From NCBI GenBank assembly GCA_021772455.1, contig JAJFLY010000034.1, positions 1 through 35,630 on the forward strand: 35,630 nt of DNA, given 5' to 3'. Below are positions 20,919 to 23,615 of the stretch, piece by piece. The stretch comes from Chlamydiota bacterium (lineage in GTDB: Bacteria > Chlamydiota > Chlamydiia > Chlamydiales > JAAKFR01). The position numbers and the translations under genes were made by a program. Within the stretch, counting starts at the first letter, position 1; each line of letters opens with the position of its first letter. The notes under the pieces are model-generated. The model saw only the letters and a list, made by a program, of their open reading frames with translations, searched no databases and had not been told where the DNA came from.

Positions 20919-22511
20919 TTAGCCCTCTTCGTCTTCTGGGGCATCGCCAATAAGTGCTTCTGAAATCAACACTATCCCAGCGACAGAAGCGGCGTGGATC
21001 AAGCAGTTCTTCGAAACCTTAACAGCATCTATCACACCCGCTTCGATCAGGTTTTCTACCTTTTCTGTGCGTGCATTAAATCCGATAGAGTCATCCTTTC
21101 CTTTTAGCTCGGCTAAAATAACTGAGCCGTCGTGGCCAGCATTTGTCACGATTTGACGCGTTGGAGCTTCACACGCTTTTGCTACAAGAGCTGCACCAAG
21201 GGCTTCATCACCTTCGAGCTTGAGAGAAGCAATAACTCGGCTTGCGTGTAGAAGAGCGATTCCACCTCCAGCTACGATACCTTCTTCTAAAGCAGCTTTT
21301 GTTGAACTTAAGCTATCCTCAAACATCTGCTTCTTCTGCTTCAGCTCAGGCTCTGTTGCAGCGCCTACGCGAATCACAGCAACGCCCCCTTTCAACTTGG
21401 CTTTACGTTCTAGAAGTTTTTCTTGGTCGTAGGTACTTGTCGATTGAGAATGCTCAGATTCGATTTGAGACACGCGCGCGTCAATCGCATCAGCATCACC
21501 CTTGCCACCAACAAGTGTTGTGGTCTCTTTTGTGATGATGACTCGCTCAGCTGAGCCTAATACATCGACGGTGACGTCTTTGAGGTAGATTCCAGCCTCT
21601 TCGGAAACAAGAGTTCCCCCTGTAAGAGCAGCAATGTCCATGAGCATCGCTTTGCGACGGTCACCAAAACCTGGAGCTTTCACAGCTGTGACGTTTAGGC
21701 TGCCGCGCATTTTGTTTACAACAAGTGTCGCAAGAACATCGGCTTCCAAATCTTCACAAATGATCAGAAGCTCACGCCCAGTTGTGGCAACAGCTTGTAG
21801 AACGGGGAGCATTTCTTGGATGGAAGCGATCTTTTTGTCGACGAGGAGAAGGTAAGGATTCCCCATTTCGATGGTCATCTTCTCTTGATTTTTAACAAAA
21901 TAGGCGCTGATATAGCCGCGGTCGAACTGCATTCCTTCGACCATTTCGATTGCTGTTTCGGTCCCTTTTGCCTCTTCGATGGTTACGACGCCAGCTTGAC
22001 CGACTTTTTCGATGGCATCCGCGATGAATGTCCCGATCTCTTCATTGCCTGAGGCTGAAACGGTTGCAATGTTTTTTGTGTCGTCTCTCCCTTTAACTGG
22101 GATCGCCATTTTCTCAAGCTCTTTGATCATCGCTTCGGTTGCCCTGTCGATGCCGCGCTTAATGCTAATCGGGCTCGTTCCAGCAGCGATATACTTGATT
22201 CCATGTTGGACAAGGGCATCGAGTAGTAGGGTTCCGGTTGTGGTGCCATCTCCACAAATGTCTTTGAGTTTAGAGGCAACCTCTTGGGCCATAGCGACGC
22301 CCATGTTTTCATACTGATCGGGTAGCTCGATATCCTTAACAATGCTGTTTCCATCATTTGTAATCGTCGGCGCGCCCCAACTTTTTTCGAGGCCCACATT
22401 GCGTCCTTTAGGACCGAGAGTTGAACGCACGGCGTCCGCAAGTTGTTGGATTCCTTTAGCTAGCTTGTCGCGTGCTTCCTGCTCAAAGATAATTTCTTTA
22501 GCTTCAGACAT
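20919..22511 (-). CDS. groEL: Chaperonin GroEL paralog (groEL3-type by position)
   Basis: This 530-aa chaperonin (E. coli 548) lies between the phosphoesterase and murF, the place of groEL3 in Chlamydia, and has no groES nearby. The ATP site looks intact: GDGTTT (D88), TNDG in place of TKDG, FEDSL in the second ATPase motif, and NARTE with VID near the C-terminus. The usual GGM-repeat tail is absent and the protein ends APEDEEG. No CIRCE heat-shock operator (TTAGCACTC inverted repeat) occurs in the 45-bp gap to rsmI, so it is probably not under HrcA control. Gene duplication and divergent function are inferred from position; the housekeeping groESL copy should be elsewhere. Confidence 0.92.
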   Translation of the reverse strand: MSEAKEIIFEQEARDKLAKGIQQLADAVRSTLGPKGRNVGLEKSWGAPTITNDGNSIVKDIELPDQYENMGVAMAQEVASKLKDICGDGTTTGTLLLDALVQHGIKYIAAGTSPISIKRGIDRATEAMIKELEKMAIPVKGRDDTKNIATVSASGNEEIGTFIADAIEKVGQAGVVTIEEAKGTETAIEMVEGMQFDRGYISAYFVKNQEKMTIEMGNPYLLLVDKKIASIQEMLPVLQAVATTGRELLIICEDLEADVLATLVVNKMRGSLNVTAVKAPGFGDRRKAMLMDIAALTGGTLVSEEAGIYLKDVTVDVLGSAERVIITKETTTLVGGKGDADAIDARVSQIESEHSQSTSTYDQEKLLERKAKLKGGVAVIRVGAATEPELKQKKQMFEDSLSSTKAALEEGIVAGGGIALLHASRVIASLKLEGDEALGAALVAKACEAPTRQIVTNAGHDGSVILAELKGKDDSIGFNARTEKVENLIEAGVIDAVKVSKNCLIHAASVAGIVLISEALIGDAPEDEEG

Positions 22512-22556: not shown

Positions 22557-23222
22557 TCACGTCGAGGGGGAGACCATCAAGACAAATTCTCCTTTAGGGG
22601 TCTTGGCTGAGAAATGCTCAAGAAGCTCGGCGGCGGTCCCGCTGGCAAACTCCTCGAACTTTTTGGTGAGCTCGCGCGCCACTACACAGCGACGCTCTGG
22701 CTCAAGCTCAACTAAAATTTTTAAAGAGGCGACGATTCTAAAAGGGGATTCATAAAAAATCGATGTTCCAGGGAAGGCTAAAGCTTCTTCAAATAGGCGG
22801 GTGATTTTTCCCTTTTTTCGAGGGAGAAATCCGATGAATTGAAAGCGCGCCGTATCCAATCCTGACGCTGAGAGCGCTGTGATTGCTGCGCACGCTCCAG
22901 GGATTGCAACGACCTCAACATCCTCTTTACGACAAGCTGCTACCAGTCGGCTCCCAGGATCTGAAATCCCAGGTGTTCCGGCATCAGAAACCAGCCCGAC
23001 CACTTTTCCTGCCAAAATATCCTCGACGACACCTCCAAGCTTCCCCCCTTCACTGTGAGCATTAAAGCTACGTAAGGGGACTTTTAACTCGTAATGGTTA
23101 AGGAGAATGCGCGTTCGACGGGTATCTTCGCAAAGCAAATAATCAAGATTTCGGATGGTTTCCACCGCCCGAAAAGAGAAATCACCTAAATTTCCAATAG
23201 GAGTTGAAATGAGATATAACAA
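22557..23222 (-). CDS. rsmI: 16S rRNA (cytidine-1402-2'-O)-methyltransferase
   Basis: RsmI methylates the 2'-O of C1402 at the ribosomal decoding centre. The 221-aa protein is a tetrapyrrole-methylase-fold enzyme with LISTPIGNLGDFSFRA at the start, CEDTRRT, VSDAGTPGISDPG and VVAIPGACAAITALSASGL, all classic RsmI segments. It is shorter than E. coli RsmI (286) and lacks its small C-terminal domain. The start appears to be TTG at 23222, since no ATG precedes LYLISTPIG in frame. It sits between tRNA-Cys and groEL on the same strand. Confidence 0.9.
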   Translation of the reverse strand: MLYLISTPIGNLGDFSFRAVETIRNLDYLLCEDTRRTRILLNHYELKVPLRSFNAHSEGGKLGGVVEDILAGKVVGLVSDAGTPGISDPGSRLVAACRKEDVEVVAIPGACAAITALSASGLDTARFQFIGFLPRKKGKITRLFEEALAFPGTSIFYESPFRIVASLKILVELEPERRCVVARELTKKFEEFASGTAAELLEHFSAKTPKGEFVLMVSPST

Positions 23223-23247: not shown

Positions 23248-23318
23248 AGGTGGCACCCAGATTCGAACTGGGGATGGAGGCTTTGCAGGCCTCTGCCTTA
23301 CCACTTGGCGATGCCACC
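23248..23318 (-). tRNA. tRNA-Cys (anticodon GCA)
   Basis: The minus strand folds into a complete cloverleaf: acceptor GGTGGCA/TGCCACC, D stem GCC/GGC, anticodon stem GAGGC/GCCTC with loop CTGCAAA (anticodon GCA at 23284-23286), T stem CCCAG/CTGGG with TTCGAAT. The discriminator is T, as required for Cys. CCA is not encoded; a run of T follows. No clear promoter is visible just upstream, where the structured element lies. Confidence 0.96.
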
Positions 23319-23338
23319 ATGTGTCTTTCGGATCTTTC

Positions 23339-23429
23339 GGCGTGTGGTCGATGATCGCGGGTGAGTCCTAGTGAAAAACTATGTCCTCACCCGCGACCGT
23401 GACTTTCGTCACTTCATCAACCACACGCC
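23339..23429 (-). ncRNA. Putative structured RNA: three-way junction with GAAA tetraloop
   Basis: The 91 bases form three nested stems. P1 is GGCGTGTGGTCGATGA (23339-23354) with TCATCAACCACACGCC (23414-23429). P2 is TCGCGGGTGAG (23355-23365) with CTCACCCGCGA (23386-23396), an 11-bp perfect stem with a 20-base loop that can form a further TAGT/ACTA hairpin. P3 is GTGAC-TTTC-GTCAC (23399-23412). The one imperfect P1 pair is C opposite A on the plus strand but G-U on the minus strand, and the P3 loop becomes GAAA (GNRA) on the minus strand. Both signs favour a minus-strand RNA, upstream of tRNA-Cys. No known RNA family is recognised. A mobile MITE-like palindrome is the alternative. Confidence 0.5.
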
Positions 23430-23566
23430 AAAATCTCTCGAAAAACACCTGTCTTAGATGCTTTTCAGGATGAGTCCTAGTGAAAAACTATGTCCTCACC
23501 CGCGACCGTGACTTTCGTCACTTCATCAACCATACACCAAAATCTCTCGAAAACACCTATCTCAGG
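23362..23566. repeat. Tandem duplication of about 97 bp with a 109-bp period
   Basis: The segment from TGAGTCCTAGTGAAAAAC to about 23458 recurs at 23471-23566 with about five differences (two in the P1 arm, one A deleted, two near the end). The second copy keeps P3 and one strand of P1 and P2, but lacks the first 23 bases, so only the first copy can fold fully. The 340-bp region 23319-23658 holds no protein gene. Confidence 0.85.
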
Positions 23567-23612
23567 TACTTGTTGAGATAAGGTCCAGCCTAACAATCTT
23601 TTCGATAAAAGA
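23556..23612. other. Two further hairpins in the murF upstream region
   Basis: TATCTCA (23558-23564) pairs with TGAGATA (23574-23580), extendable by CC/GG past a bulge. TCTTTT-CGAT-AAAAGA (23597-23612) forms a perfect 6-bp stem. Neither is followed by a T-run, so they do not look like terminators. Confidence 0.5.
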
Positions 23613-23615
23613 CAA

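Follow-up and report, generated by a model that had tools for sequence, protein, structure and literature searches.

What is the long hairpin that adjoins the tRNA-Cys gene in this 35,630-nucleotide stretch of chlamydial DNA, here called the window? The sequence-only reading took it for an RNA candidate built around a three-way junction with a GNRA loop, and left its nature between a regulatory RNA, a tRNA leader and a mobile palindrome. The features of the locus are listed below; G000 is the genome of the window, and G001 and G002 are other species of its genus.

23248..23318, minus strand: tRNA-Cys (GCA), the downstream gene (Rfam, 63.3 bits)
23320..23448, minus strand: whole element copy, a long hairpin abutting the 5' end of tRNA-Cys (match to covariance model R2, and fold z -13)
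23320..23338, minus strand: 3' arm of the outer helix, terminating 2 nt from tRNA-Cys
23430..23448, minus strand: 5' arm of the outer helix, with tandem G.A and a bulged A, kept in G002
23339-23354 with 23414-23429, minus strand (5' arm 23414..23429; 3' arm 23339..23354): P1, 16 bp, from the fold and helix mapping
23355-23365 with 23386-23396, minus strand (5' arm 23386..23396; 3' arm 23355..23365): P2, 11 bp, from the fold
23366..23385, minus strand: apical part, a GACA / [UAGU-UUUUC-ACUA] / GGA internal loop with inner hairpin, the conserved signature
23399-23403 with 23408-23412 (whole 23399..23412), minus strand: P3, 5 bp with a GAAA loop, a lineage-specific 17-nt insertion in the 5' strand
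23587..23615, minus strand: candidate promoter TTGTCT-17-TAGGCT, with CAATTGTCTTTTAT identical in G000, G001 and G002

The three stems are present with the positions and sizes first described, and tRNA-Cys does adjoin them on the same strand. The helix exceeds that description, extending over 23320-23448 by way of a tandem G.A/A.G internal loop and the bulged A. The preference for the minus strand was borne out: the single imperfect pair of P1 reads U.G on the minus strand and C.A on the plus strand, the P3 loop reads GAAA and TTTC, respectively, and RNA folding of 23320-23450 gave a minimum free energy of -84.4 kcal/mol for the minus strand (z -13.0) and -66.7 for the plus strand (z -11.5), with 0 of 200 shuffles as good, the minus strand being better by 18 kcal/mol. 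A search of Rfam with the hairpin returned no family at gathering score, in agreement with the initial remark that no known RNA family has this layout. The three-way junction fared less well. In the sister species G002 (record JAJACP010000007.1, 'Chlamydiales bacterium isolate O_S4.2_2'; PMC9666466 has sponge samples named in this way) the hairpin is found at the same tRNA-Cys site, but P3 is missing there, as it is in nearly all members of the family described below, and was gained in the G000 lineage as a clean insertion of 17 nt. With no GNRA stem in the G002 ortholog, what is conserved is not the three-way junction but the long stem and its apical internal loop, and the apical loop GACAUAGUUnnUCACUAGGACUCA is the same in G000 and G002 save for two loop bases (nn).

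A partial tandem copy, absent from the sequence-only reading, lies at 23468-23553 (minus strand), with 97% identity over 86 nt to 23359-23444. It consists of the 5' arm, P3 and the apical loop without the 3' arm, and retains a 7-bp P2 that includes a G.U which would read A.C on the plus strand. G000 has a second, separate element site with a partial copy of this kind (5' arm and loop, 3' arm missing), at G000:C35:1-200 (L107/L211); at both sites, read along the motif strand, the partial copy lies upstream of the full one.

On the minus strand the order is candidate promoter, hairpin, tRNA-Cys and rsmI, with murF divergent on the plus strand; the names murF and rsmI are our own assignments from the ORF sequences. 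A scan for the sigma-70 consensus did not detect the candidate promoter at 23587..23615. CAATTGTCTTTTAT is kept in the three species of the genus and has a -10-like hexamer 17 nt beyond it; in G001 the leader is short, tRNA-Cys beginning shortly after CAATTGTCTTTTAT. The hairpin is therefore probably part of the transcribed pre-tRNA-Cys leader, and the leader option of the sequence-only reading probably describes its position correctly, judging from the sequence comparison.

The covariance-model search that had been suggested for this locus both recovered the hairpin and revealed a dispersed family. Model R1 was built from the tRNA-Cys hairpins of G000 and G002, and found similar hairpins at other sites in these two genomes and in three other genomes. 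Model R2 was built from six members found with R1, no tRNA-Cys sequence among them, using an alignment fitted to the structure; a MAFFT alignment of the divergent members misaligned the stems and was left unused. In the R2 alignment 91% of cells are paired and 38 of 51 pairs show double changes. R2 retrieved both tRNA-Cys hairpins at 94-95 bits (94.5 bits, E 1.3e-20, for the G000 copy), and matched 78 of 234 chlamydial genomes and 53 of 147 genera, a count to be read with the knowledge that matches of a covariance model to long palindromes can be non-specific; it had no match among the f7-group genomes listed, which in genome size and contig number resemble Chlamydiaceae. An apical sequence pattern independent of the model yielded 27, 26, 19, 13 and 12 copies in G153, G172, G155, G126 and G140, respectively, with near-zero counts for the reversed-pattern control. 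When 26 loci were inspected, most had GGACA-[UACUU...AAGUA]-GGCC, some had related loops, and a few were without the GACA motif. The subfamilies have in common a stem of about 31 bp (30-31 nt from basal to apical loop in the 5' and 3' arms of all subfamilies measured) and mostly a GACA/GG(A/C) apical internal loop, and differ in their ends. In G000 itself some 14 places match. They include, on contig C4, a 161-bp copy of the canonical type flanked by an AT duplication, and five or more nearly identical copies of a type about 101 bp long. Forty copies sampled in G153 and G172 were mostly intergenic.

Several further searches bear on the distribution. Among the 234 genomes the exact loop motif was found only in G000 (twice) and G002, and a 3-mismatch match in G186 was attributed to chance, as it lies inside a folD-like coding region. 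Viral contigs had no match to a first loop pattern; the one match to a second (L164) was discarded because it does not form the hairpin. The canonical element had no match in phage and plasmid collections, and canonical copies gave only sub-threshold matches to long hairpins of the miRNA type in Rfam. One subfamily, seen at L226 (352-512) and L228 (1892-2061), combines GAACCTATC ends with another interior and an inner stem GGACA-AUGUG...CACAU-GGCC. Further copies abut tRNA genes, at G002:C23:164-272 by tRNA-Arg and, as a weak match, at G000:C32:33470-33571 by tRNA-Phe; by a rough Poisson estimate tRNA-adjacent copies are above expectation in G000 (P 0.006) and G002 (P 0.0003).

Comparison of flanks indicates that members of this family have moved. 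The canonical element measures 160-163 bp in nearly all of 61 copies and has sharp inverted ends, GAACCTATC...GATAGGTTC, of which positions 1-9 are almost always complementary (60 canonical copies). The target duplication is exactly 2 bp: the left and right dinucleotides are identical in 47 of the 61 copies (28 expected from shuffles), there is no match at k=3 in the same 61 copies, and among dinucleotides that are not self-complementary 12 of 18 are identical and none is reverse-complementary. The consensus of the target before insertion is C-AT-A, asymmetric relative to the motif strand. An empty site was found in G173, which aligns across the joined flanks of a copy in its sister species G172 (660/660 at 81%), and the AT at this site belongs to a start codon. 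Several other canonical copies (L194 and other G172 and G153 loci) also lie exactly at start codons, the duplicated AT falling within ATG and the gene start following ...GGATAGGTTC. Canonical copies contain no transposase ORF. None of five isolated end matches examined as a possible autonomous parent transposon had a transposase; they proved to be internally deleted derivatives or members of another subfamily with the same ends. Derivatives of 44-53 bp that consist of the ends only are present at L224 (2017-2069) and L225 (about 2011-2054). Scattered copies bounded by target duplications had been named beforehand as the mark of a MITE, and many copies, 2-bp duplications and an empty site are what we find, so that the family evidence supports the option of a mobile palindrome. 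The copy at tRNA-Cys has neither the canonical GAACC ends nor a recognisable target duplication, and we therefore take its own mobility from its membership in the family.

These data suggest, with a probability of roughly 0.8 (0.82 by our own estimate), that the hairpin at tRNA-Cys is a MITE-like element, an old and now diverged copy of a non-coding palindrome dispersed in Chlamydiota. The common ancestor with G002 would have acquired it by insertion into the interval from the promoter to the 5' end of tRNA-Cys. This reading is carried by the hairpin's family membership and by the many copies, fixed length, 2-bp duplications, empty site and strand-biased foldability of that family.

The strand bias is seen in the arm mismatches. 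In 60 distinct canonical copies there are 243 G.U and 68 A.C mismatches on the motif strand, a ratio of about 4:1 overall; when one copy per 80% cluster is counted the numbers are 113:28 (p 3e-13, p-values being indicative only because the copies are related), and by position 40:8. Fold energy favors the motif strand in 58 of 60 copies, by a mean of 12 kcal/mol, and other subfamilies give a G.U:A.C count of 55:23. The tRNA-Cys copy of G002 is without the bias, having one G.U and two A.C. The ratio is the same whatever the direction of the flanking genes, so host mRNA is an unlikely cause and a strand-specific step of the element a likely one. We take the bias as a sign that the element, during its own life cycle, passes through a stage in which one particular strand is single and folded; mutation biased by strand in this intermediate is a possible alternative.

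The bias also bears on whether the family is a classical MITE, in which a DDE transposase would bind the inverted ends as duplex DNA and the hairpin fold would be incidental. Terminal inverted repeats, the 2-bp duplication, the many copies without an ORF and the internally deleted derivatives that retain the ends only all speak for this explanation, and relatives of IS630 and IS30 are known to duplicate 2 bp. We nevertheless regard it as possible but somewhat improbable, for the ends vary between subfamilies whereas the apical loop and stem length are kept, the target is asymmetric with respect to the motif strand, and G.U far exceeds A.C. For the MITE-like element that we favor, an active copy would form the hairpin from just one of its strands, present as ssDNA or RNA, an enzyme supplied in trans would recognise the apical GACA/GG(A/C) loop and the stem of about 31 bp, and the element would be inserted at C-AT-A with duplication of AT. 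At the tRNA-Cys site the hairpin would be transcribed as the pre-tRNA-Cys leader and removed by RNase P; RNase III might help by cutting the long stem, by analogy with Correia elements. It is a tentative proposal, which may well prove wrong, that these are phylum-wide non-coding mobile hairpins whose substrate is a folded single strand (ssDNA or RNA), recognised by its apical internal loop at a constant distance of about 31 bp along the stem and inserted at C-AT-A with duplication of 2 bp, and that they fit neither duplex-end MITEs nor REP/RAYT.

A further possibility is that a long-captured element has come under selection at this locus, either for a part in regulating or processing pre-tRNA-Cys or for an sRNA that the leader would release. 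The hairpin occupies the same site in two species with a nearly identical loop, 97% of cells are paired, and 10 of 48 comparable pairs show double-sided (compensatory) changes between G000 and G002 (0-2 in slid controls), a count from two sequences that represents events between two species rather than many independent ones. The compensatory changes looked for by the sequence-only reading are present in P1, including its 5' arm at 23414..23429, and in P2, P3 being absent from the ortholog. The tRNA-Cys leader fold is the strongest among 66 tRNA upstream regions of G000 and G002 (z -14 and -9, the next being -4.3), no other leader in this set having a comparable fold. In addition, the U.G pair and tandem G.A are conserved, and the tandem copies are 97% identical in arm and loop as opposed to 73% in the neighbouring 33 nt. 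Against selection at this site, the hairpin insertion is missing from the short tRNA-Cys leaders of G001 and of every other relative examined, and the same loop and architecture recur at many unrelated sites, so that conservation of the loop is a family trait. Compensatory changes can also arise when one arm of a palindrome is corrected to match the other, and such arm-to-arm correction is plausible here because the orthologous copies located between tRNA-Gln and prsA in G001 and G002 (L213, G001:C47:14387-14499; L218, G002:C4:36254-36364) differ in the strand that carries the apical motif, as if the loop had been inverted between the arms. The compensatory changes fit either RNA selection or such correction; retention of the U.G pair, the tandem G.A and the apical mismatches argues for incomplete correction. 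On balance we consider a selected leader RNA rather unlikely. Regulation of tRNA-Cys by the hairpin is not supported, and any regulatory effect would be secondary.

A terminator or attenuator between murF and tRNA-Cys would suit a very stable intergenic hairpin but is very unlikely, as neither strand has a U-tract after the stem (A-rich sequence follows both 3' arms), a terminator scan finds nothing there, and the position would be downstream of the tRNA-Cys promoter. An artefact (a chance palindrome, an assembly error, or a model matching any long palindrome) is hardly credible: several copies do lie at contig ends and the model also hits near-perfect palindromes on both strands, but against this stand the z of -13, orthologs in independently assembled genomes (three for the tRNA-Gln copy, two for the tRNA-Cys copy), the near-zero control of the sequence-pattern counts, and the constant 161-bp length with target duplications.

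MITE-like palindromes are known as a kind. Among those nearest in description are the Rickettsia palindromic elements (RPE), palindromes of 100-150 bp that fall into several families, occur in many copies and belong to an obligate intracellular bacterium (PMC10969869, PMC3733652). The chlamydial element is likewise short, palindromic and multi-copy with several families; RPEs differ in that they carry an ORF and often lie in frame within genes, whereas the 40 sampled chlamydial copies were mostly intergenic. Correia or NEMIS elements of Neisseria are also MITEs with inverted ends and have a 2-bp TA duplication, but their ends are different, their target is TA rather than AT, and their definition is without the full-length stem, conserved apical loop and strand bias seen here. 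Inversion has been reported for Correia elements, and RNase III cuts their transcribed hairpin (PMC10969869). ERIC, an intergenic palindrome of about 127 bp in transcribed regions, is similar in form but belongs to another phylum and has another sequence, whereas the chlamydial copies have fixed ends and 2-bp duplications. REP/REPIN sequences, moved by RAYT (an HUH tyrosine transposase), provide the model suggested by the strand bias, a one-strand hairpin recognised as ssDNA; REPs differ in being 20-40 bp long and in carrying a GTAG tag at the foot of the stem, the chlamydial element being 161 bp with GAACC/GGTTC feet. No target duplication is expected from Y1 transposition. The 3'ETS-leuZ and other sRNAs from tRNA-precursor spacers are structured RNAs cut from a tRNA precursor, as the hairpin would be, but here the structure is on the 5' side and probably derives from a mobile element. 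The open-access papers searched describe no chlamydial element of this kind; as measured against these papers and Rfam, the family, its apical signature, its fixed geometry and its strand bias are new.

Environmental chlamydiae are known for transposase expansions. The present family is ancient and still insertion-polymorphic between sister species, and its position next to genes and tRNAs makes it likely to affect transcripts and to interrupt assemblies. Its strand bias provides a direct handle on how hairpins without a transposase move, a question shared with the RPEs. The locus also carries a caution, in that strong covariation and a tRNA neighbour mimicked a new regulatory RNA where the origin was a mobile element.

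Two minor observations concern the rest of the window. A single sub-threshold Rfam match to CRISPR-DR25 at 22824-22845 (20.2 bits, E 0.55) lies inside the rsmI-like ORF and is most likely due to chance. At 20919-22511 there is a 530-aa ORF with an acidic C-terminus and without a GGM tail, which we take to resemble a GroEL-type chaperonin.
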